The position numbers and the translations under genes were made by a program. From positions 20,229 through 84,228 of the IMG/VR virus record IMGVR_UViG_3300025426_000021: 64,000 bases of DNA. One strand, given 5' to 3'. Below, in pieces: positions 15,247 to 64,000 of the stretch. Source of the DNA: a virus. The notes beneath the pieces were generated by a model, which saw only the letters and a program-made list of their open reading frames with translations, had not been told where the DNA came from and made no database searches. Numbering within the stretch: the first letter of the stretch is position 1; each line of letters begins with the position of its first letter.

Positions 15247-16506
15247 ATGGAAGCTGATAAAGTATTAAAGGATAACAACTCATTTTGTCTTGTTCCTTGG
15301 ATACATTCCTACATTTCTCCACAAGGTAAGAGATGCTTATGTGCTGTTTCAAATGATAACTTTGGAAAAAACTTGTCATTAGAAGAGTTTTGGAATAGCG
15401 AGCAAATGAAAGAAATAAGACGTAAAATGATGCGAGGAGAGTCGTTATCAGAATGTGAGCGTTGCCACGGAAAGACTGTTAACGTTTATACATATAAAAC
15501 ATACTTCAATACAGAGTTTGCTCATAGAACAGAAGATATTTTAAAGAACACATCAGAAGATGGCACATACAATCAGTTACCTCAAACATTAGATTATAGA
15601 ACTAATGTTTGTAACTTTAAATGTAAAATGTGTACAGAAGAGTATTCTACACAAATACAAAATGAAAAGACTCGTAACAATATACCACTACAGTATGGTA
15701 TGTTAAACAAAGAAGAAAGAGAAAGAAGTGTAGAGATAATAGATAGCGAGTTTAATAATGAAGATATACTCAAGAACTTATTAGAGTTGTATTGGGCTGG
15801 TGGGGAGCCAATGTTTTGGAAAACTCATTGGGACGTATTAAAGAACTTAATAGATAAAAATTACGCAAAAAACGTAATATTAAGATATCATAGCAACTTA
15901 TCTACAATAAAGTATAAAGACTTAGAACTAACTGAATGTTTTAAGCATTTTAAAAAAATTAAGTTTTTCTGTAGTTTAGATGGTACCGGAGAAATAGGGG
16001 AATGGATAAGATCGAATCTTGATTACTTTAAATGGAGGTTAAACTTTGCTAAGTTAGTAGAATACAGAAACAGTAATGATAACTTAGAGCTAATACTTTC
16101 TATTACAGTTAATACACCTACCTTATTTGATTTCGATAATCTGTACAGCTTATGTAAAGAGTTTGCTGTTATACCAGATTTTCAAACATGCCATGCAGAC
16201 AATGCTACTAACTTGTTATGCCCAAGAACTATACCCAAGAAAATAGTACAAGATATATGTGATGCATTTCTACAAAAATATGCTAATGAAAACAACCTTG
16301 TAATGGATAAGTTTAAAAGCTACATTAACTTTCTATACAGTCAAGAGTTTTTTGAAGTAGATGCAGATGGAGAATATAGAAAACAATTAAAAAGAGCCAC
16401 TGATGAAATAGTTTATTTAGAAGAGAATAGGTCTCATGAAACTATTACTTTTAAAAAAATAATATCTCAAAATAAAGACTTAGAAGATTTTTATAACAAT
16501 ATATGA
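15247..16506 (+). CDS. Radical SAM protein with N-terminal twitch/SPASM-like cysteines
   Basis: The 419-residue enzyme has the radical SAM cluster motif C122-NFK-C126-KM-C129 within a DYRTNVCNFKCKMC context, followed by a GGEP-like AGGEPMFW at about residue 185. Five extra cysteines precede it (C14, C30, C32, C70, C73), beginning FCLVPWIHSYISPQGKR; this matches radical SAM proteins with a twitch/SPASM-type auxiliary cluster, here N-terminal. The substrate cannot be read from sequence. It heads an overlapping plus-strand operon with SDR, SGNH and sugar epimerase genes (4-bp ATGA overlap with the next), so carbohydrate or peptide tailoring is likely. Confidence 0.85.
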   Translation: MEADKVLKDNNSFCLVPWIHSYISPQGKRCLCAVSNDNFGKNLSLEEFWNSEQMKEIRRKMMRGESLSECERCHGKTVNVYTYKTYFNTEFAHRTEDILKNTSEDGTYNQLPQTLDYRTNVCNFKCKMCTEEYSTQIQNEKTRNNIPLQYGMLNKEERERSVEIIDSEFNNEDILKNLLELYWAGGEPMFWKTHWDVLKNLIDKNYAKNVILRYHSNLSTIKYKDLELTECFKHFKKIKFFCSLDGTGEIGEWIRSNLDYFKWRLNFAKLVEYRNSNDNLELILSITVNTPTLFDFDNLYSLCKEFAVIPDFQTCHADNATNLLCPRTIPKKIVQDICDAFLQKYANENNLVMDKFKSYINFLYSQEFFEVDADGEYRKQLKRATDEIVYLEENRSHETITFKKIISQNKDLEDFYNNI

Positions 16507-17157: not shown

Positions 17158-17937
17158 ATGATTTTATTTACAAACGGATGTTGCTGGACCTGGGGAGCAG
17201 GTTATGATTTTGAAGATGATACGTATACTCCGTATGTAGATCCTAACACTACACGTTTTAAAATTACCTGGCCGTATTTACTGGGTAAAAAGTTAAGTGC
17301 AGATGAAGTAATAAACCTATCTATGGGGTGCGGTAGTAATGAGCGTATTATTAGAACCACATTTGATTGGTTGTGTAACCAAACACCTGAACACTTGAAA
17401 GAAACTATAGCCATTATACAATGGACCGATGGGCAGCGGTTTGAATATTACGTACCAAAATCGCCTATAAACACATATGAGCGTAACACTGAAAATGATC
17501 CTTTTAGATGGCGATTGGTTGCGCCCAGATTTAGTACAGTAACACTACCGCCACCGTACTACATTACAAACACAACTCAAAATAAAATACCATTACCCGA
17601 TGACGAAAAAGATGGTACAGATATCAATCAGGTATGGATTAAAACAAACTCTAAGCAACAGGAAATGTATAAAGATATAATGTGTTTTACTTCTATGAGT
17701 GATATGTTTAAAAGTTTTGGAGTTAAACATTTTTTTTGGCATAAAACGTATGACCCTGATCATCATGCTTATCGCTCTCAAACTATAAAAGATTATATAA
17801 AGTATAAACTGCCGTTTATAGATAATGATATTATTTTTAAACCGGAATGGATAGCTCAAAACAAGCCGCACCCATCTTACGAGGGTTATAAGTATTTAGC
17901 AAATATAATATACGAACAAATTAAACCATTAATATGA
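17158..17937 (+). CDS. SGNH/GDSL-like hydrolase family protein
   Basis: The 259-residue product starts ILFTNGCCWTWG, then NLSMGCGSNERI near residue 58, IAIIQWTDG near residue 82, and near the end NKPHPSYEGYKYLANII. These follow the block order of SGNH hydrolases (block I GDS-like turn, block II Gly, block III Asn-like, block V D/x-x-H). The block I serine is replaced by Cys here (GCCWT), so catalysis may be changed or lost. SGNH enzymes often add or remove acyl groups on glycans, which fits the neighbouring sugar genes. A longer open frame runs upstream, but the ATG at 17158 is the first after the previous stop. Confidence 0.6.
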   Translation: MILFTNGCCWTWGAGYDFEDDTYTPYVDPNTTRFKITWPYLLGKKLSADEVINLSMGCGSNERIIRTTFDWLCNQTPEHLKETIAIIQWTDGQRFEYYVPKSPINTYERNTENDPFRWRLVAPRFSTVTLPPPYYITNTTQNKIPLPDDEKDGTDINQVWIKTNSKQQEMYKDIMCFTSMSDMFKSFGVKHFFWHKTYDPDHHAYRSQTIKDYIKYKLPFIDNDIIFKPEWIAQNKPHPSYEGYKYLANIIYEQIKPLI

Positions 17938-18905
17938 GTAATAAAAAAGTAATAGTGTGTGGAGCGGGCGGGTTTATAGGTACCCATTTAGTAACCAGCT
18001 TAAAACAAAAAGGTTATTATGTTATTGGTGCTGATTTAAAATACCCTGAATATTCTAAAACTGATGCAGATGAGTTCTACTTATACGATTTAATAGATCA
18101 AAGTTTGGTAGATAACTTACTCGGTAATCAAGTAGATGAAATATACCAGCTCGCTGCAGATATGGGTGGTGCAGGATATATATTTACAGGTAATAATGAC
18201 GCACATATAATGCAAAACAGCGCTACTATTAATCTTAATATATTACGTTCTTTATTAAAATATAAAACTTGTAATAAAATATTTTATTCTTCTAGTGCAT
18301 GCGCATATCCTGCAGAAGCTCAAACAAAAACAGATAGTCCAGCTTTAAAAGAAGAAGACGCATACCCAGCTAACCCAGATAGTGAATACGGGTGGGAGAA
18401 GCTTTTTAGTGAACGTTTATATATGTCTCATGCAAGAAATCATGGGCTACAGGTAAGAATAGCACGGTTTCATAATATATTTGGACCACTAGGTAGTTGG
18501 AACAACGGTAAAGAGAAGTCTCCAGCTGCAATATGCAGAAAAGTAGCAGAAGCTACAGATGAAATAGAGGTATGGGGAGATGGTACTCAAACTAGAAGTT
18601 TTTTATATGTAGATGAATGTGTTTATGGTATACACCAGTTAATGGCAAGTAGTTATGACAAACCTTTAAATCTAGGTAGTGATAGACAGATAAGCATAAA
18701 CGAGCTTGCAGCAATAGTAGCTAAAATAGCCGGAAAATCCATTAATATAAAACATGTACCCGGTCCACGTGGTGTAGTAGGTAGATGTAGTGATAATGGG
18801 AAAATCCAAGAAGTACTAGGGTGGAAACCTAAGGATACTCTAGAGTATGGCCTTACTCAAACTTATAACTGGATTCTTAGTAGGATTAACCAACAAGAGG
18901 GATAA
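17934..18905 (+). CDS. NAD-dependent sugar epimerase, GDP-mannose 3,5-epimerase-like
   Basis: The 323-residue protein is an extended-SDR epimerase. G10-AGGFIG starts the Rossmann fold, AADMGGAGYIF follows (a feature of GDP-mannose 3,5-epimerases), then SSSACAYP and YGWEK (YxxxK pair), RFHNIFGPLGSW, and a C-terminal SFLYVDECVYGI substrate-domain motif. It would interconvert a nucleotide sugar, most likely a GDP-mannose derivative, in the cytoplasm. It overlaps the SGNH gene by four bases and closes the sugar operon 15247-18905. The class is clear; the exact substrate is inferred. Confidence 0.85.
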   Translation: MSNKKVIVCGAGGFIGTHLVTSLKQKGYYVIGADLKYPEYSKTDADEFYLYDLIDQSLVDNLLGNQVDEIYQLAADMGGAGYIFTGNNDAHIMQNSATINLNILRSLLKYKTCNKIFYSSSACAYPAEAQTKTDSPALKEEDAYPANPDSEYGWEKLFSERLYMSHARNHGLQVRIARFHNIFGPLGSWNNGKEKSPAAICRKVAEATDEIEVWGDGTQTRSFLYVDECVYGIHQLMASSYDKPLNLGSDRQISINELAAIVAKIAGKSINIKHVPGPRGVVGRCSDNGKIQEVLGWKPKDTLEYGLTQTYNWILSRINQQEG

Positions 18906-25414: not shown

Positions 25415-26020
25415 ATGGAGCATTTTCAACACACTATTGCAGGTTGGTTTACATTTCCAGAACTATACAAAATCGCCGCTCAATATGTGCCAGATGGAGG
25501 TCATGTAGTTGAAATAGGTGCTTTTTTAGGCAAATCAACATCCTTTATGGCAGTTGAACTGTTTAACTCGGGTAAACGAGTAAAATTTGATGTTATTGAT
25601 ACTTGGCAAGGCAGTCCAGAACACGTAGAAACGTTTAAAGATCTAGGCTACGAACCTGGAGATAAAAATATACTTTACAAAGAATTTTTGCGCCATATGG
25701 AACCAGTAAGGCATATTATCAATCCATTGCGTACTGATTCAGTAACAGGTGGTAAACTTTACCCGGATGAGTCTTTAGATTTTGTTTTTATAGATGCGGG
25801 GCACGAATATGAAAATGTAAAAAACGATTTATTAACATGGTATCCTAAGGTAAAAAAAGGCGGGTTTATTGCTGGGCATGATTATTTTTTTCCGAGCGAT
25901 CCAGAACACGGACATAAATACCCCGGAGTAAAAAAAGCTGTAGATGAGTTTTTTACAAATATAAAAGCAGATGTTTTAATAAGTCCTGCAGAATATTGCT
26001 GGTTATACCAAGTGCGTTAA
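25415..26020 (+). CDS. Class I SAM-dependent methyltransferase (Methyltransf_24 type)
   Basis: The 201-residue protein has the SAM-binding VVEIGAFLGKSTSFMA at residues 31-46, VKFDVIDTWQGSPEH (acidic end of strand 2) near 64-78, and LDFVFIDAGHEYENVKNDL with KKGGFIAGHDYF further on. The IDAGH and GHD motifs are typical of small methyltransferases encoded with glycan genes. Substrate unknown; the sulfotransferase and glycosyltransferase context suggests a sugar. TAAGTA lies 13 nt before the ATG. Its stop shares TTAA with the opposing gene. Confidence 0.8.
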   Translation: MEHFQHTIAGWFTFPELYKIAAQYVPDGGHVVEIGAFLGKSTSFMAVELFNSGKRVKFDVIDTWQGSPEHVETFKDLGYEPGDKNILYKEFLRHMEPVRHIINPLRTDSVTGGKLYPDESLDFVFIDAGHEYENVKNDLLTWYPKVKKGGFIAGHDYFFPSDPEHGHKYPGVKKAVDEFFTNIKADVLISPAEYCWLYQVR

Positions 26021-29232: not shown

Positions 29233-29898
29233 TTATTTAGTGTTTCTTTCGGCGGAAGCAATAAAGTCGTAGAACTCTTTTCTAGTCTCAGGCTCGTTCA
29301 TGAAATCCTTAGATAGTTTAGAAGTAATCATTACTGCACCGTGATGCTTTACACCTCTATGACAAGCACAAGTATGAGAGCATTTTACTACTACTGCAAC
29401 ACCTTGGTTCTTTTCACATATTTCGTCAATAGCTTTATGGATTTGAACTGTTAAAGCTTCCTGTACTTGTGGTCGACGAGCATAATGCTCTACAATACGA
29501 TTTAGCTTTGATAGACCAATAACCCGTCCGTCTTTACTTGGGATATATGCAACGTGTGCTACACCAGTAAAAGCTAAATGGTGATGGCTACACATTGATA
29601 CTAAAGGTATATTACACTGACTTACAATACCGTCATAACCATCTGAAGGGAATGAAGTAATCTTAGGCGGTTGATCGTAGCAACCTTTAATAAGATCACA
29701 TACATAAGCCTTAGCTACACGCTTTGGTGTACCTTCACTATTAGGATCATTACGCCAGTCAATCTGTAAAGCATCTAAGAAGCCTTCATAAGCTTTGGTA
29801 GCGTTAAGGATAATTTCTGTCTTTTCTTCTTCGGTACGAGGTATATTACTATTCGCAGTAGGAAGAGGTGGGTGTTTAACTCTTGATGTTGTTGCCAT
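29233..29898 (-). CDS. folE: GTP cyclohydrolase I (FolE), first step to 7-deazaguanine
   Basis: The 222-residue enzyme has the FolE signatures: MCSHHHLAFTGVAHVAYIP (zinc Cys and His, catalytic His), GLSKLNRIVEHYARRPQVQE, and VKCSHTCACHRGVKH (second zinc Cys plus phosphate-binding residues). It converts GTP to dihydroneopterin triphosphate, the substrate of QueD. With queD, queE, queC and queF also in this window, its role is probably 7-deazaguanine synthesis and not folate. The start at 29898 is chosen because an in-frame ATG at 29964 would overlap the upstream gene by 47 bases. Confidence 0.93.
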   Translation of the reverse strand: MATTSRVKHPPLPTANSNIPRTEEEKTEIILNATKAYEGFLDALQIDWRNDPNSEGTPKRVAKAYVCDLIKGCYDQPPKITSFPSDGYDGIVSQCNIPLVSMCSHHHLAFTGVAHVAYIPSKDGRVIGLSKLNRIVEHYARRPQVQEALTVQIHKAIDEICEKNQGVAVVVKCSHTCACHRGVKHHGAVMITSKLSKDFMNEPETRKEFYDFIASAERNTK

Positions 29899-29917
29899 AT
29901 TAAATGATTTTACGGAC

Positions 29918-30247
29918 TTAAACTTTTCGCCCGTTGTATAACTCTGATTTGTTATTGATTCCATATTTTACTAAATAGCTTATTATAACCTCGATCGAGT
30001 CAGTTTTCAACTTAAATCGCTCAGGAATATATTGACCTCCGTCATATAACTCGAAGAAGGTTTCATTAAAAAGTTCCTTGTGATTGACATAACAGGTACA
30101 AAACACTGATGCATTACCCGGATCAATCATAACTGTCCAGGAACGTGGATCTGCTTCACCATATTGATCAAAGATCTTATAGACCATATAACCTGAGTCT
30201 TTAAGTCTTTTGATGAAATAACTTTGTGTTGTTATCTTATTAGCCAT
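29918..30247 (-). CDS. Unknown conserved-looking protein next to the clamp gene
   Basis: The 109-residue product is not recognised. It reads as a small alpha/beta protein (YFIKRLKDSGYMVYKIFDQY; WTVMIDPGNASVFCTCYVN; FKLKTDSIEVIISYLVKYG). Its start codon overlaps the stop of the sliding clamp gene by one base (TAATG on the minus strand), which points to translational coupling with gp45. Confidence 0.65.
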   Translation of the reverse strand: MANKITTQSYFIKRLKDSGYMVYKIFDQYGEADPRSWTVMIDPGNASVFCTCYVNHKELFNETFFELYDGGQYIPERFKLKTDSIEVIISYLVKYGINNKSELYNGRKV

Positions 30248-37247: not shown

Positions 37248-38165
37248 TTATTGACGAGGAAACTTAAAATAAGGGTACTTTGAGTTTATTAAATGTTGAT
37301 CTAATAGTTTTTTATCAGATGCACGAGTTGGCACGATGTCCCAGCCACCACGACGGGCATAAAAACAAGTTACCATAAGTTCATCTGGTTCTAATAAGTC
37401 CCAAAGACGTTTATAAGCAGCTTCACAGATTTCTTCATGGAAATGACATTCATTACGGAATGATACGATCCATTCTAGTAAAGATTGTTCAGTTACTTCT
37501 TTATCGCTTTTATAGTAGATAAAGATATCACCTGAATCTGGTTGCTTTGTAATCTTACAGTTAGAACGTAATAGAGTGCTCATATAGAAGTGCTTTTTAT
37601 TCACTTCAGATTCATTAGCTACTAACAAATCAGCTGATTCGTTGAATATTGTAAACTTAATACTTTCTGCGCTCTTAATACTTTCTAACGGTAACCAGAT
37701 ACCAGGATCATAATCTCTTAACCAAACTTCACGAGCAGCAAAGTCTTTTATTTGTACTTGTGGAAATAGATCAACTTCTACATCTGTCTCTAATAGTTTA
37801 GATAGGTCTTCTGAAGCAGTCTTTTTAATATTGTTTAATGCTTCTGCTACAGTCTTACCCATAGGCTGCATATTAAATGAGTTCCAGTAGAGCTTCATTG
37901 ACTTAGACTCTACAATATAAGGGTTAGTAGCTGGATACACTACTTTAGCAACACAGGTAACAGGTAAACCGTTATTTGTTAATGCACTACATTCATAACC
38001 GTTCCAGATATCGTAACCTACGAATGGTAAGGAATCGTTCTGTAAACCTAAGTAGGTACGATTGCGTTGACGTTCTTCACGCACTAAGATCTCAGGCGTG
38101 TAGGTGGTAGGAGAATCAACTCTCTGACCAAGTACTTTGTCAATATTATTAGTATTATAGCTCAT
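37248..38165 (-). CDS. queF: QueF, NADPH-dependent preQ0 reductase (bimodular type)
   Basis: The 305-residue protein is close in length and order to bimodular E. coli QueF (282). Residues 86-100, ESKSMKLYWNSFNMQ, are the family signature binding preQ0 and NADPH. The catalytic Cys203 and Asp210 lie in TLLRSNCKITKQPDSGD, matching SNCLITHQPDWG of E. coli. SFRNECHFHEEI holds the His243-Glu244 substrate pair, and CFYARRGGWDIVP ends the domain. It reduces preQ0 to preQ1. It overlaps the P-loop kinase gene by 11 bases and is three genes downstream of the DpdA-like gene. Confidence 0.9.
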   Translation of the reverse strand: MSYNTNNIDKVLGQRVDSPTTYTPEILVREERQRNRTYLGLQNDSLPFVGYDIWNGYECSALTNNGLPVTCVAKVVYPATNPYIVESKSMKLYWNSFNMQPMGKTVAEALNNIKKTASEDLSKLLETDVEVDLFPQVQIKDFAAREVWLRDYDPGIWLPLESIKSAESIKFTIFNESADLLVANESEVNKKHFYMSTLLRSNCKITKQPDSGDIFIYYKSDKEVTEQSLLEWIVSFRNECHFHEEICEAAYKRLWDLLEPDELMVTCFYARRGGWDIVPTRASDKKLLDQHLINSKYPYFKFPRQ

Positions 38166-38730
38166 TGGTAAAATCTTTCTTTAAGTTATCAGTTACAATC
38201 TTAACTCTATCTTCTACAGAACCCATTACATAAACAAGTTTATCTGTAGGCATTGAATGGTGTTTTAGATAAAAGTCAAACTGCTTAACAACACCATCAA
38301 AAAACTCCTTACCTGTACTTCTCTCACCATCATCTTTTACTTCAAGTTCAGGTACAACATAAAAAATCTTATCATATACTTTTAGCAGTTCTTCATAAAC
38401 AGCTAAAGCAGCTTGATACACATCTTTACTAACTTGACCTTTTTCATAAAAGTAAGTCGTGTAAGCAATACCATCTAAAGCACCTCTATCTAATATCCAG
38501 TTACCCGGAGTTAAACCGTACTCTAAATGTCTAGCCATTATCAAATACTGAGTTAAAGAAGTACCGCCTTCATTAATAGGTACATTTAAATCTTTAAGAC
38601 CTCTCGTTAGATTAGTTCTAAAACTAAAATGCTGATCGTCTAAAAACAGATCATCTTTTAGTGCTTTTACTAACGTTGTCTTACCTTGTGAATGAGCGCC
38701 ACAGATTGCAGCTTTATAGTTTGATCTCAT
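38155..38730 (-). CDS. P-loop NTPase/kinase-like protein (AAA_28 type)
   Basis: The 191-residue protein has Walker A AAICGAHSQGKTTLVKAL near residue 8 and WILDRGALDGIAYTTYFYE near 78, a DR-x-x-xD lid-side motif typical of nucleoside/nucleotide kinases and NadR-like ATPases. It could phosphorylate a nucleotide or cofactor, but the substrate is not readable. It overlaps queF and follows the formyltransferase-like gene by three bases. A second such protein is encoded at 59200-59919 beside queD/queE, so the pairing with 7-deazaguanine genes occurs twice. Confidence 0.72.
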   Translation of the reverse strand: MRSNYKAAICGAHSQGKTTLVKALKDDLFLDDQHFSFRTNLTRGLKDLNVPINEGGTSLTQYLIMARHLEYGLTPGNWILDRGALDGIAYTTYFYEKGQVSKDVYQAALAVYEELLKVYDKIFYVVPELEVKDDGERSTGKEFFDGVVKQFDFYLKHHSMPTDKLVYVMGSVEDRVKIVTDNLKKDFTNEL

Positions 38731-38733
38731 AAG

Positions 38734-39312
38734 TTATTTATTTAATAGGCTTTTGCGCATAAAGCCAACCCAATTTTCGATTGCCAGTTTATGCAGTCTT
38801 CCAATATAATCGTCTAAGCTATCAAATTCATTGTAGATATTCTTGCTATAAAACTCTTTCTCAGACACTACTTTACCAGCATCTACTTCAGGTATAACTT
38901 CATGTATAACGTGTCCGTGCTGATAGTAAGGTCTTTCGGCGTGACTGAACCACACTTTAGCCTGAGGATCTTTACCTTTTAACTCAGGAAACTTAGTTAT
39001 AAGACCTGGATGTCCGTTGTATATCTTGAATCTACCGCAGATCTGTGGCGGTAGTATACGAAGATAACCGTGAAGAGTAATAATATCGGTATGCTTAATA
39101 GCCTCTCTATATTCTTCTACTGTTGGTTTCTTAGGTAAAAATATAAAACGATCAAAACATTTTTCTAGAAGATTAGGATTGATTTTGTCCATATCTTCAA
39201 AGCTTTTATTAGTTATGATTGCATCTGGAAACCTACCGATATGCTTAGATATCTCATATATCTCAGATCCACTCTGAGAGAAAAAGGTTTTCCAGATTAA
39301 GGTACGTTTCAT
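38734..39312 (-). CDS. Formyltransferase-fold protein (PurN/Fmt-like)
   Basis: The 192-residue protein carries the formyltransferase active-site order: HGYLRILPPQICGRFKIYNGHPGLITKFPELKGKDP at about 83-118, in which Asn and His of Y-N-G-H-P match Asn106 and His108 of PurN, and HVIHEVIPEVDAGKVVS, whose Asp matches Asp144. It would transfer a formyl group from 10-formyl-tetrahydrofolate. The acceptor is unknown: a purine precursor, a sugar amine or a modified base. It sits between the kinase-like and DpdA-like genes; a link to DNA modification is possible. Confidence 0.78.
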   Translation of the reverse strand: MKRTLIWKTFFSQSGSEIYEISKHIGRFPDAIITNKSFEDMDKINPNLLEKCFDRFIFLPKKPTVEEYREAIKHTDIITLHGYLRILPPQICGRFKIYNGHPGLITKFPELKGKDPQAKVWFSHAERPYYQHGHVIHEVIPEVDAGKVVSEKEFYSKNIYNEFDSLDDYIGRLHKLAIENWVGFMRKSLLNK

Positions 39313-39539
39313 ATGTTTAGTCGATACCCTATTGTATTATCACTAAAGAAAATTACAAGTGTAAAGTCAACAATACCGTGTTTTATTAGGTAAGGTTTAA
39401 CATCTGCAAGCTCTTTTACCGGGAGTTCATGATTACGAATACAATCCCAGAAAGAATAATCGCGGATATAAACAGAATCGGCCAGTAAGTGAGGATAGTT
39501 TGCATGTACAGAATTAGTTATAGCTTCTAAAGTTGTCAT
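39309..39539 (-). CDS. Unknown small protein
   Basis: The 76-residue product is not recognised (VHANYPHLLADSVYIRDYSF; YLIKHGIVDFTLVIFFSDNT). Four-base overlaps with both the DpdA-like gene upstream and the formyltransferase-like gene downstream place it firmly within the modification operon. Confidence 0.65.
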   Translation of the reverse strand: MTTLEAITNSVHANYPHLLADSVYIRDYSFWDCIRNHELPVKELADVKPYLIKHGIVDFTLVIFFSDNTIGYRLNI

Positions 39540-40342
39540 CCATTAACATAGTTTCTAAACTGAATCAGATTGCTTGCAATGATTCTTTCTTGTATTTCAT
39601 CTGGTACTACATCTAAAAGATCTACAAGTTTGGTAGATTCTTTCTTCCAGTTACCAATAACATCAGAATATCTTACTCTTTTAATACCATGTACAATAGG
39701 AGAAGAAGTATCTAGTGTTTCGATCCAGTTATATTCAGGTCCTTGATAGAAACTAAACTCTCTTGGGTGTGCACAACCTAATAAATGATGAGGTTTATCT
39801 TTATTAATGATACCGTCATTCATTAACTGAGTTAAAGTTATTACTCTACCCATCATATAAGATACCCACTTGTTAGGATGAGGAAATGCTTTAAGGTAAT
39901 AAGAATAGTCAAATGAAATAGCTAGTTTATCTACGCCGATCTCTTGATCTAGTGCTACATAACACTTAACTAGTTCACCGTAAGTCTTTCCTTGCACAAC
40001 ACCAATAGTTTTAGAGCTACTAACAAAGTCCCAATCTTTCCATAAGCACTTCTTAGCTGAATCAATAGTACCTTGACAATCTTCTAACACGTCTGGTATA
40101 ATATATTCTGTAGGGTTAAGCTTTTGTATCCAGTGAGCATAACGTTTAGAGTCAAAAGAGGTACCTAACTCAAATATAGAGTTATCTAATAAAACATGCC
40201 TACCACCTTTAACACTGTCTTCAAAGAACTTGTAGTATTGCGGGTGAGTTTCAAAGAGGTGCACGAGTGCATAGCAGTAATCGTTGTATGTACGAGATAT
40301 CTCGAGCATACTTAAGGGAGATTCGTGTGATATTTTAATCAT
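39536..40342 (-). CDS. Compact tRNA-guanine-transglycosylase-like protein, candidate DNA transglycosylase (DpdA-like)
   Basis: The 268-residue protein follows the TGT barrel motif order. VLLDNSIFELG (D53) aligns with VLTDSGGFQ, YIIPDVLED (D84/D88) with the second Asp region, IGVVQGKTYGEL (113-124) with GIVQGG, DKLAISFDYS with the YAIGG strand, and HHLLGCAHPREF then IETLDTSSPIVHG (D211) with LMGVG and the nucleophile Asp of MFDCVMPTR. It lacks the C-terminal zinc-binding Cys/His set of tRNA enzymes. With folE, queC/D/E and queF present, the likely role is exchanging guanine in phage DNA for preQ0 or preQ1. It overlaps the gp43 gene by four bases. Confidence 0.68.
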   Translation of the reverse strand: MIKISHESPLSMLEISRTYNDYCYALVHLFETHPQYYKFFEDSVKGGRHVLLDNSIFELGTSFDSKRYAHWIQKLNPTEYIIPDVLEDCQGTIDSAKKCLWKDWDFVSSSKTIGVVQGKTYGELVKCYVALDQEIGVDKLAISFDYSYYLKAFPHPNKWVSYMMGRVITLTQLMNDGIINKDKPHHLLGCAHPREFSFYQGPEYNWIETLDTSSPIVHGIKRVRYSDVIGNWKKESTKLVDLLDVVPDEIQERIIASNLIQFRNYVNG

Positions 40343-54645: not shown

Positions 54646-55197
54646 ATGGACATAGGCCATTGGACAACAAATGAAACTTTCAACAACGATATTTTGCCTT
54701 ACGGTTTTATTTATCGTATTACAAACCTGGTCAGTGGTAAGGTCTATTTCGGTAAAAAGCAGATTAAAAGCGTTAAAAAACTTAAGCCTCTCAAAGGAAG
54801 AAAAAACAAAAGACACTTTGACGTAGAGACAGATTGGAAGACTTATACTTCATCCTCTAATGATGTTAATGAAGATATAAAGAAGATTGGTAAAGACAAA
54901 TTTAAGTTTGAAATACTACGTTTTTGTGACAGTAAGTTTGAGTTAGCTTATTATGAAGCTAAAATACAGTTTGATCATGATGTGTTACTTAAAGGTGGTT
55001 ATTATAACGGCATTATAAACTGCCGTATTGGTAGAGCACCAGATGCTTTGCTAAAAAAGCTTGCACAAAGCAATAAAGAGCCTATCTTATTATTCGGTGA
55101 AACCTTACCCGTTAAAGTACAACCTGTATCTGAAAAACTTTCAAGAGACGGAAAGTCAGATTCTAAGCTCCTTTCAGAAGGAACTACGCAAACTTAA
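54646..55197 (+). CDS. GIY-YIG-like nuclease domain protein
   Basis: The 183-residue protein has YGFIYRITNLVSGKVYFGKK at residues 19-38, where FIY and YFG stand for the GIY and YIG strands, then WKTYTSSSNDVNEDIKKIGKDKFKFEILRF with the conserved order of GIY-YIG nucleases (Seg-like), and ELAYYEAKIQFDHDV carrying the probable metal-binding Glu. The usual Arg after YIG is not obvious (Lys present). It may be a free-standing homing-type nuclease or a virion or replication nuclease. TAAGTA lies 12 nt before the ATG. The 3' end overlaps the next gene by up to 137 bases. Confidence 0.65.
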   Translation: MDIGHWTTNETFNNDILPYGFIYRITNLVSGKVYFGKKQIKSVKKLKPLKGRKNKRHFDVETDWKTYTSSSNDVNEDIKKIGKDKFKFEILRFCDSKFELAYYEAKIQFDHDVLLKGGYYNGIINCRIGRAPDALLKKLAQSNKEPILLFGETLPVKVQPVSEKLSRDGKSDSKLLSEGTTQT

Positions 55198-57477: not shown

Positions 57478-57942
57478 ATGGGTAAATTTACATCAACTAA
57501 AGTCATTCCGTTGGGTTCGGCTGCTTTCAGACAGCCCTACGCTCAAAGCCATTGTCATTTTATTCATGGCTATCGTTTACAGGCCAAGTTTTGGTTCTCT
57601 TGTGATACATTAGATAACAACAACTGGGTTGTTGATTTCGGCGGTCTTAAGCAACTTAAAACTGCTCTAGAAGAATATTTCGACCATAAAACAGTGGTTT
57701 GGGCTAAAGACCCTGACTTAGATATGTTTAAACAACTAGAAGAACGTAAGATGATTGAACTAGTAATTCTTGAAGACGGAGTAGGTATTGAAAGGTTTGC
57801 TGAACTATGTCATAAACTAGCAAACGAACACGTTAAAGACTTAACTAACGGAAGATGCTGGTGTGAAAAAGTAGAAGTTTGGGAACATGAAGGCAATAGT
57901 GCTATATTTGAAACTATACCTCAAAGTGGGTGGAAAAGCTAA
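57478..57942 (+). CDS. queD: QueD-like 6-carboxytetrahydropterin synthase, altered zinc site
   Basis: The 154-residue protein follows the QueD/PTPS plan: catalytic Cys26 in QSHCHFIHGYRLQAKF, VVDFGGLKQLKTALEEYFDHKTVVW with the Asp69-His70 dyad, and a late VEVWEHEGNSAIFE substrate Glu. In E. coli QueD the zinc ligands are His16, His31 and His33; here the first aligns with Phe17 (SAAF for AAH) and the third with Tyr32 (HGY for HGH), leaving His30, though His25 and His27 are near. It would make 6-carboxytetrahydropterin from dihydroneopterin triphosphate for QueE. It starts the queD-queE pair. Confidence 0.78.
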   Translation: MGKFTSTKVIPLGSAAFRQPYAQSHCHFIHGYRLQAKFWFSCDTLDNNNWVVDFGGLKQLKTALEEYFDHKTVVWAKDPDLDMFKQLEERKMIELVILEDGVGIERFAELCHKLANEHVKDLTNGRCWCEKVEVWEHEGNSAIFETIPQSGWKS

Positions 57943-57964: not shown

Positions 57965-58771
57965 ATGTCTAATATTGACCCTAATACAACTTTATTTATT
58001 TCAGACGATTTTGTGTTCTATACGCTAGAAGGAGAGGGCCGTTATATCGGTCATCCTTCAGTGTTTATGAGAATGGCTATGTGTAACTTAACATGTATCG
58101 GTTTTAAGAGTGAAGACTCACCGAACGGTTGTGATAGCTATATTAGCTGGTCTAAGAAAAACAAAATGACATTTGAAGAGGTTGCACAACTCTTTGAGAA
58201 AAACGATTATCATGAACGTTTAAAAGAAGGTGCATTACTTAAGTTAACTGGTGGTGAACCTTTTATTCAGCAAAAGAACTTATTACTATTTGTTAAGTTT
58301 ATTAGAGATCGTTGGGGTTTTAAAAACTACAGCAGAACATTAACAATGGAAGATATTGGTAGGCCTACATTGCATGTAGACTTTGAAACTAACGGCACTA
58401 TTATGCCGGATGAAGAATGGTCTCGTATTGGCGTACATGTAACATATACTACTTCGCCTAAACTATCAAGTAACGGAGATCCTGCTGATAAACGTTATAA
58501 ACCAGAAGTATTGCGTTATCTAGCTGTACATGATGCTTGTTTTAAGTTTGTAGCTAAACAAGAGTCAGACTTAAATGAAGTATTAGAAAACTATCTTAAT
58601 AGCCCTGAAGTAGCTGTACGTTCAAGTCAAGTATGGATTATGCCAATGTGCGGTAGCCGTAAAGAGCTACTAGAAGTTGGGCCTGTAGTGGCTGAACTAT
58701 GTAAGAAATATAATTTTAAGTTCTCTAACAGAATGCACTTGCAGGTCTGGGATCGCGCACTCAAGGTTTAA
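57965..58771 (+). CDS. queE: QueE, 7-carboxy-7-deazaguanine synthase (radical SAM)
   Basis: The 268-residue protein has the QueE opening FYTLEGEGRYIGHPSVFMRM, radical SAM cysteines C40-NLT-C44 and then C56 (spacing CxxxC-x11-C, not the canonical CxxxCxxC), LLKLTGGEPFIQQ (SAM-binding GGEP, residues 96-99), LHVDFETNGT and a closing LHLQVWDRAL. QueE enzymes are known to vary in the cluster loop, so the insertion is compatible with function. It converts the QueD product to CDG. It follows queD after 22 bases and precedes a small membrane protein gene. Confidence 0.87.
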   Translation: MSNIDPNTTLFISDDFVFYTLEGEGRYIGHPSVFMRMAMCNLTCIGFKSEDSPNGCDSYISWSKKNKMTFEEVAQLFEKNDYHERLKEGALLKLTGGEPFIQQKNLLLFVKFIRDRWGFKNYSRTLTMEDIGRPTLHVDFETNGTIMPDEEWSRIGVHVTYTTSPKLSSNGDPADKRYKPEVLRYLAVHDACFKFVAKQESDLNEVLENYLNSPEVAVRSSQVWIMPMCGSRKELLEVGPVVAELCKKYNFKFSNRMHLQVWDRALKV

Positions 58772-62932: not shown

Positions 62933-63655
62933 ATGTCAAAAGCACTAGTCATATTATCAGGCGGTATGGATAGTACCGTATTATTACATTATGTAACTAA
63001 AACGCTCAAATACGATGAAGTATATGCTGTTACTTTTAACTACGGGCAGCGGATTGCTCGAGAGATTGAATGTGCTAAGTTTCAAGCTAAAGCGTGTAAT
63101 GTTAAAGAGCATAAAGTAATTAATATGGATTTCTTTAGAGATATCTCCACGATGTCTGCTTTAACTAATACTAATCTCAAAATACCGAAAGCTAAAGATG
63201 ATATCGGTAATGCACAGCCCTTGAGTTACGTTCCTTTTAGAAATTTACTTTTACTTACTTCAGCTGCTGGTTGGGCTGAATCTATTGGGGCTCAAGACCT
63301 GTTTTACGGTGCAGTAGAAACCGACGACTTTAGTGGTTATTGGGACTGCACGTCAATGTTTCTTAATAAGGTTAACGACATATACGGTCTTAATCGCAAA
63401 AACACGATCAAGGTTAATGCACCGTTTATGCGTTACTCTAAAGAAGAGGTTATTAAAACCGGTATTGACTTACAAGTAGACTTTAGACAAACACATACCT
63501 GTTATGAGGGTACTGACCCAGCTTGCGGGGAATGTGTATCATGTGCAGCACGCATCAAAGGTTTTATTGACAACAAAGCTATTGACCCTATTAAATATTC
63601 ACGTAACATTCCTTGGGAACAATACGATTGCAAACCTTTAACCTATTTAACATAA
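62933..63655 (+). CDS. queC: QueC, 7-cyano-7-deazaguanine (preQ0) synthase
   Basis: The 240-residue protein (typical QueC: about 230) has the PP-loop ATP motif LVILSGGMDSTVLLHY at residues 5-20, VTFNYGQR near 37, YVPFRNLLLLTSAAGWAE near 100, and the zinc Cys set in HTCYEGTDPACGECVSCAAR near 193-212. It turns CDG into preQ0 using ATP and ammonia. The start follows an AT-rich leader with no Shine-Dalgarno sequence. A class II glutamine amidotransferase gene follows after one base. Confidence 0.94.
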   Translation: MSKALVILSGGMDSTVLLHYVTKTLKYDEVYAVTFNYGQRIAREIECAKFQAKACNVKEHKVINMDFFRDISTMSALTNTNLKIPKAKDDIGNAQPLSYVPFRNLLLLTSAAGWAESIGAQDLFYGAVETDDFSGYWDCTSMFLNKVNDIYGLNRKNTIKVNAPFMRYSKEEVIKTGIDLQVDFRQTHTCYEGTDPACGECVSCAARIKGFIDNKAIDPIKYSRNIPWEQYDCKPLTYLT

Positions 63656-63656
63656 T

Positions 63657-64000
63657 ATGTGCGGTATAGCAGGTAGTAAAAATAAAGATATAGCTTTTAA
63701 GTTATACAAAGATAATCTTGCAAGAGGTTATTATAGTTCAGGTGCACTAACATTAGACTCTAATGATCAATACCACGTACACAAAACTGAAGGTATTTTT
63801 AATGAACCTATAGACTGTTTTAACCCGCCGGGTATAGACACTCACGGTCGTTACTTTTTATATCATTCCCGTGGCCCTACTGTTGAAACAAAATCATTTG
63901 AAGCGATAAACAATCACCCGTTCATTTATGGTGATTGGATAGTGGCTCATAACGGTATTATTAGTAATTTTGAGAGTTTATGTAGAGAGTATTTTCCCGA
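63657..64000 (+). CDS. Class II glutamine amidotransferase, 3'-truncated by the window edge
   Basis: The first 114 codons are visible. It begins MCGIAGSKNKD, so Cys2 becomes the N-terminal nucleophile after Met removal, the mark of Ntn-type class II amidotransferases (GlmS, PurF, AsnB). FLYHSRGPTVE near residue 63-73 and PFIYGDWIVAHNGIISNFESL near 88-108 are the expected glutamine-binding strands (HSRG and HNGI). It starts one base after queC. In some phages an amidotransferase domain is fused to QueC and makes the archaeosine-type base; here the two are separate genes. Any synthase domain would lie beyond the window. Confidence 0.85.
   Translation, partial: MCGIAGSKNKDIAFKLYKDNLARGYYSSGALTLDSNDQYHVHKTEGIFNEPIDCFNPPGIDTHGRYFLYHSRGPTVETKSFEAINNHPFIYGDWIVAHNGIISNFESLCREYFP

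Follow-up and report, generated by a model that had tools for sequence, protein, structure and literature searches.

What does a stand-alone class II (Ntn) glutamine amidotransferase (GAT) do directly behind queC in a phage genome? The question arises at the very end of the stretch of viral DNA analysed here (64,000 bases, hereafter the window), where queC ends at position 63655 and, one base further on, at 63657, a GAT gene starts with ATG TGC GGT ATA GCA GGT (MCGIAG...), as described in an earlier, sequence-only reading of this DNA. Three roles were suggested there for the protein: the supply of ammonia to QueC, the diversion of preQ0 into a second, archaeosine-type DNA base, and sugar amination. 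The coupling of a GAT to QueC is of an already known kind; what is new is a separate class II GAT as the probable partner of QueC.

The GAT gene and its product

The window comprises bases 20229–84228 of an 84,228-base record, so that the contig stops at base 64000 and leaves the remainder of the GAT gene unread; the open reading frame runs without a stop through 114 codons up to that base. The 114-aa fragment by itself gives a weak Pfam match (PF13522, E = 5e-4). It represents a real gene, since a viral scan revealed its relatives at 65 loci, three of them identical across all 114 residues, and since the complete GAT of locus L002 (218 aa) is identical to the window copy over the same 114 aa. 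The stop codon and a single base part the QueC and GAT frames, which code for two polypeptides, unlike the fused Gat-QueC of phage 9g, a distinction drawn correctly in the sequence-only reading.

That reading had also considered that the full gene might prove to be a plain GlmS or asparagine synthetase (AsnB). The closest named proteins are indeed the N-termini of GlmS, but the full-length homologues, including one identical over the 114 residues, comprise 199–227 aa and end without a synthase or isomerase domain, and the GlmS, PurF, and AsnB models cover the glutaminase part alone, far under the cut-off (56 of 381 bits for the GlmS and AsnB models). This refutes such a reading for the relatives; that the cut gene is the front part of either enzyme is extremely improbable, as a rearrangement past base 64000 in this genome alone would be required.

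The full-length GAT of L002 is recognized above the Pfam cut-offs by both GATase_6 and GATase_7. The solved fold nearest to the AF2 model of GAT (pLDDT 93) is the glutaminase domain of GlmS (1xff, E = 5.6e-12), and the GlmS and PurF glutaminases rank above EgtC, which is also among the matches. Cys2, Arg23, Gly24, Asn99, Gly100, and Asp123 are invariant across 37 split GATs, with the class II marks of a Cys straight after Met1, the oxyanion Asn-Gly, and the substrate Asp. GAT has the fold and the catalytic residues of the GlmS, PurF, and AsnB glutaminase domains, from which it differs by the absence of a synthase domain and by having QueC as a partner; it is, as predicted from its sequence, a class II glutaminase domain alone.

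One residue sets some of these proteins apart. The equivalent of GlmS Arg73 at the glutamine-carboxylate site, Arg72 in GAT, is Arg in the clade of the window. In 21 of the 37 proteins, from clades B, K, and M (the KVP40-type, the marine-operon, and most of the clade-B ones), Gln replaces this carboxylate-holding Arg, making glutamine use uncertain in several clades. An amidohydrolase might thus be considered, in which the Ntn fold is re-used, as in EgtC, for a pathway-related amide such as ADG or another small one, at least in the Gln-for-Arg72 lineages; the stand-alone size of GAT, resembling that of EgtC, is in line with this. However, EgtC is a poorer fold match than the GlmS and PurF glutaminases, the clade of the window retains Arg72 together with all the other glutaminase residues, and hydrolysis of ADG would oppose QueC, so this alternative appears unlikely. 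It is also quite unlikely that the Gln-type GATs (the KVP40 type, the marine operons, and most of clade B) use a non-glutamine amide donor or substrate; they would then represent a new amidotransferase or amidohydrolase for the preQ0 step, possibly with an undescribed deazaguanine intermediate or base.

Deazaguanine pathway genes of the window

FolE, QueD, QueE, QueC, and DpdA are all encoded in the contig (Table 1). QueC shows the motifs SGGMDS and CYEGTDPACGECVSC, and both its ATP and its zinc motifs are present. The queF gene, whose presence had been pointed out in the sequence-only reading, codes for a protein aligning to V. cholerae QueF (3bp1, E = 1.4e-32), with the NADPH motif ESKSMKLY at residue 86, which fits E(S/L)K(S/A)xK(L/Y)(Y/F/W). 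The two T-fold modules, the NADPH motif, and the V. cholerae alignment indicate that it is not the archaeal QueF-L, an amidinotransferase.

Table 1. Predicted deazaguanine-related features of the window and the evidence for their assignment
Feature	Position	Strand	Evidence
FolE, GTP cyclohydrolase I	29233..29964	-	PF01227 E=1.6e-49 at G000:49488-50024
QueF, bimodular preQ0 nitrile reductase	37248..38165	-	PF14819 (QueF_N) + PF14489
Nucleotide-kinase-like P-loop protein	38155..38730	-	PF13521; place and order as immuto thymidylate kinase
Formyltransferase, candidate DpdN-like preQ1 formyltransferase	38734..39312	-	PF00551 E=4e-7
DpdA-type DNA guanine transglycosylase (TGT fold)	39536..40342	-	49% identity to immuto DpdA
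QueD, 6-carboxytetrahydropterin synthase	57478..57942	+	PF01242; phrog_2389 E=6e-36
QueE, 7-carboxy-7-deazaguanine synthase (radical SAM)	57965..58771	+	phrog_2076 E=3e-43; TIGR03963 under cut-off
QueC, 7-cyano-7-deazaguanine (preQ0) synthase	62933..63655	+	PF06508 E=2.4e-62; TIGR00364 above cut-off
Class II (Ntn) glutamine amidotransferase (GAT), stand-alone, first 114 codons	63657..64000	+	L002 homologue, Pfam GATase_6/7, AF2 model

The Pfam TGT profile (PF01702) detected no DpdA in the 64-kb window, and the gene was reached through a weak match in the genome of a relative. The AF2 model of its product (pLDDT 91.8) matches tRNA-guanine transglycosylase structures (best E = 1.3e-8); hhalign revealed no link between this DpdA and that of 9g or nt-1. 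The genes for the formyltransferase and the kinase lie between those for DpdA and QueF, in the order found in Flavobacterium phage immuto, whose DpdA and formyltransferase show 43–50% identity to those of the window (43% for the formyltransferase, whose gene adjoins that of DpdA in immuto). Immuto differs from the window in that GAT is absent and its QueC is of a subtype without the zinc cysteines. The names DpdN, for the preQ1 formyltransferase, and DpdA3, for the transglycosylase family, reportedly appear in an article on the deazaguanines of phages (NAR, 2023). By its domain and its place beside dpdA and queF the formyltransferase of the window is a candidate DpdN, which would act on dPreQ1. 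The set of pathway genes, with a true QueF, DpdA, and the formyltransferase, leads us to predict a preQ1-type modification, i.e., preQ1 in the phage DNA, possibly in a formylated form.

Several other reading frames of the window are of separate interest. A GIY-YIG-like one (54646-55197, + strand; YGFIYRITNLVSGKVYFGKKQ) is located upstream of the QueD–QueE region, genes for a radical-SAM protein (15247-16506; phrog_14086) and a nucleotide-sugar epimerase (17934-18905; phrog_540) lie close together on the + strand, and a DNA methyltransferase-like frame (25415-26020, + strand; phrog_2675) is present in a phage that probably has deazaguanine DNA too.

Linkage of GAT to QueC

The GAT gene is conserved far beyond the window, among distantly related phages. 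The first scan revealed 61 loci with both QueC and GAT, the window included, and the two adjoin at 56 of them; at three others they lie 1.2–2.5 kb apart, and in L006 they are separated by a GIY-YIG-like endonuclease frame, with the same 832-nt spacing in L005. QueC is not seen at five further GAT loci, where the contig begins directly at GAT or no more than 0.1 kb from it (four loci), or within 1.2 kb of it (L065). In a marine clade with a different genome backbone QueC is located 0.7–3.7 kb upstream of GAT, and in clade B other genes, at times on the other strand, lie between the two. A gene similar to those for GMP reductase/IMPDH (phrog_9582) follows QueC and precedes GAT in L060 (5508-6485); it was rejected as a partner of GAT because only this single case came up.

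A wider scan, with the transglycosylase as a query, brought up large genomes of marine and freshwater origin in which the genes are ordered QueE-FolE-DpdA-formyltransferase-kinase-QueF-QueC-GAT, with QueD usually close behind. QueC and GAT adjoin in 14 of the 16 marine operons, and a GIY-YIG-like frame intervenes in the other two. Such homing-endonuclease-like frames are found exactly between queC and GAT in three lineages (L006:7167-7856, minus strand; L289:9763-10350; L299:6231-6890).

The two genes also adjoin in KVP40 (KVP40.0124/0125), nt-1, 1.081.O, F86, 2.275.O, and Pseudomonas phage pf16, and in the records of the KVP40 group and pf16 GAT is entered as a hypothetical protein or nucleophile aminohydrolase, without a gene name. 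The pairs of KVP40, nt-1, 6E351A, and pf16 have the same order and length and a homologous GAT, and represent the same thing as the pair of the window. In the KVP40 type, unlike in the window, Arg72 is replaced by Gln, the DpdA comes from an unrelated family, and the formyltransferase is missing from the cluster. A viral scan with the KVP40 GAT as a query returned KVP40-type phages only.

Since many loci are near copies of one another, the linkage counts do not represent independent events. The distances between QueC proteins parallel those between GATs (r = 0.93 for 34 pairs, uncorrected for phylogeny; r = 0.49 within clade A alone).

Partners of GAT: QueC subtype versus end-product genes

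Immuto-type operons (L300, L304–L307) share DpdA, the formyltransferase, the kinase, and QueF with the window but have the other QueC subtype, and GAT is found in none of the five, whereas it accompanies the KVP40-type QueC in all 16 operons that could be tested. GAT thus tracks the subtype of QueC and not the enzymes making the end product, an association with few independent changes beneath it. In the immuto-type QueC (L300, L304–L307; L253:3608-4489 in immuto) TNTSYKP...SDYKSASS replaces the zinc-cysteine motif CYx..CxxCxxC, and the pathway is complete.

Other components come and go. In nt-1 the QueC–GAT pair is kept without QueF, and in the KVP40 type it is kept with a DpdA family showing no detectable link to that of the window. 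In clades A and B (L002:9339-10022, L061:9451-10125) and in L063, GAT has a glycosyltransferase-like gene (PF13712) in its vicinity, and in L135 (2773-3480) this gene sits between QueC and GAT. With QueF, the DpdA family, and the glycosyltransferase all dispensable, QueC is the only constant partner of GAT.

These data bear on sugar amination, in which GAT would serve the glycosyltransferase-like gene, e.g., in amino sugar synthesis. Its neighbourhood in the lineages just named, the nucleotide-sugar epimerase gene that comes after GAT in L063, and the similarity to GlmS N-termini agree with such a role. Nevertheless, the PF13712 gene was found in none of the six KVP40-type GAT genomes searched, the marine operons hold GAT among deazaguanine genes only, and neither an isomerase nor an aminotransferase turned up as a partner, so that a function of GAT in sugar or glycan metabolism is very unlikely.

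Three further genomes show other gene combinations. L063 (G003, 125.7 kb) has DpdA, QueC, and GAT, while QueF and FolE were not found in it by Pfam. Gp056 of Campylobacter phage CP220 (L104:7995-8771), annotated as a 'hypothetical protein' and encoded next to thymidylate kinase, falls into the DpdA subfamily of the window (43% identity); in CP220 QueC is present and GAT absent. G031 (140.7 kb) carries DpdA, the formyltransferase, the kinase, and QueF, with neither QueC nor GAT, but as it may be incomplete it is not counted as proof.

Split GATs, fused Gat-QueC, and the base in the DNA

A known arrangement close to the QueC–GAT pair is the fused Gat-QueC (phages 9g, Vid5, and PaMx25; in Crenarchaeota, the archaeosine synthase), which likewise joins a class II glutaminase and QueC and in phages belongs to a deazaguanine cluster. 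By comparison, the window has two genes, with QueC first and GAT second, the GAT belongs to a clade of its own, and the split type is usually accompanied by QueF and has not been reported to give dG+ as the main product. The split GATs form one clade (support 99/94), found in phages only, and the fused ones a separate clade (100/98); a distant homology links the two (hhalign E = 1.5e-11 to 5e-14 with clades A and B), and the Gat-QueC of Vid5 is the second viral fold match to GAT. A first tree, grouping split and fused GATs against GlmS/PurF, was dropped, as three unrooted groups say nothing of sisterhood. Cellular genomes scanned for close relatives of GAT gave a single match, a YafJ-like protein of Legionella, so no cellular source of GAT is known at that sensitivity.

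The pair might accordingly be a split archaeosine synthase that, like the fused protein of 9g, uses ammonia to convert preQ0 into an archaeosine-type base, so that a phage with QueF would make two deazaguanines, as the sequence-only reading had proposed. Apart from the distant homology, this is favoured by phage 9g, in which a fused Gat-QueC with DpdA makes dG+ (PMC6884629), and by nt-1, which has QueC and GAT without QueF and contains, as fractions of G, ~0.11% dPreQ0, 0.035% dADG, and 0.02% dG+ (PMC6884629). The dG+ of nt-1, however, amounts to 44 per million nucleotides, with dPreQ0 fivefold higher, and an ArcS homologue was assigned to this phage by its authors (PMC6884629), so that the trace of dG+ is not creditable to GAT. 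Moreover, QueF is absent from the three fused Gat-QueC phages checked and nearly always present in the split-GAT ones, whose GATs form their own clade. Phage 6E351A, which we equate by name and host with the Vibrio phage 6E35.1a record (L309), has the order QueF-QueC-GAT and a one-base overlap of the last two genes; 15% of its dG was reported to be a 295-Da nucleoside consistent with dPreQ1, the only modification reported (PMC12028318). A split archaeosine synthase is thus rather unlikely. The proposal of two deazaguanines is not supported, given pathway genes that indicate preQ1, perhaps formyl-preQ1, the dPreQ1 of 6E351A, and a GAT that tracks the QueC subtype; GAT is probably not a marker of a second fate of preQ0.

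Proposed role of the QueC–GAT pair

QueC converts CDG via ADG to preQ0 using ATP and ammonia (PMC13329287). Of the three roles suggested earlier, the feeding of ammonia to QueC by GAT is the best supported, although the transfer itself is what we infer. GAT and QueC together probably constitute a split, glutamine-dependent preQ0 synthase, with GAT as the ammonia subunit, as suggested by the glutaminase residues, the gene order, and the inheritance of GAT together with QueC. GAT would hydrolyse glutamine through Cys2 and, in a physical complex, pass the ammonia to the adjoining QueC, which would use it to convert 7-carboxy-7-deazaguanine to preQ0. QueF would then reduce preQ0 to preQ1, DpdA would put preQ1 into the DNA of the phage, and preQ1 may in addition be decorated by the formyltransferase.

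PP-loop relatives of QueC (AsnB, GuaA, NadE) are commonly coupled to a glutaminase. The proposed pairing would be analogous to AsnB, GuaA, and the fused Gat-QueC, each comprising a PP-loop ATPase and a glutaminase, and as in AsnB and GMP synthase the ammonia would be supplied to an adenylating PP-loop enzyme. In archaeal GMP synthase the separate GAT subunit is of class I (PF00117), while the GAT of the window is of class II. Several points speak against the proposal: GAT is not obligatory for QueC, as the QueC proteins of immuto, CP220, and cellular organisms work without it, other genes lie between the two in clade B, and Gln takes the place of the carboxylate-holding Arg in several clades. 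Demand for preQ0 may plausibly be high, as a phage of ~170 kb with 35% GC has ~60,000 guanines, so that extensive replacement of these in a burst of 100 would call for millimolar preQ0 per cell.

A GAT beside QueC does not alone predict dG+. QueC has been described as an ammonia-using enzyme; if the proposed role is true, phages needing much preQ0 have made this step glutamine-dependent by means of a separate subunit, and KVP40 and other well-studied phages would gain a name for an unassigned gene.
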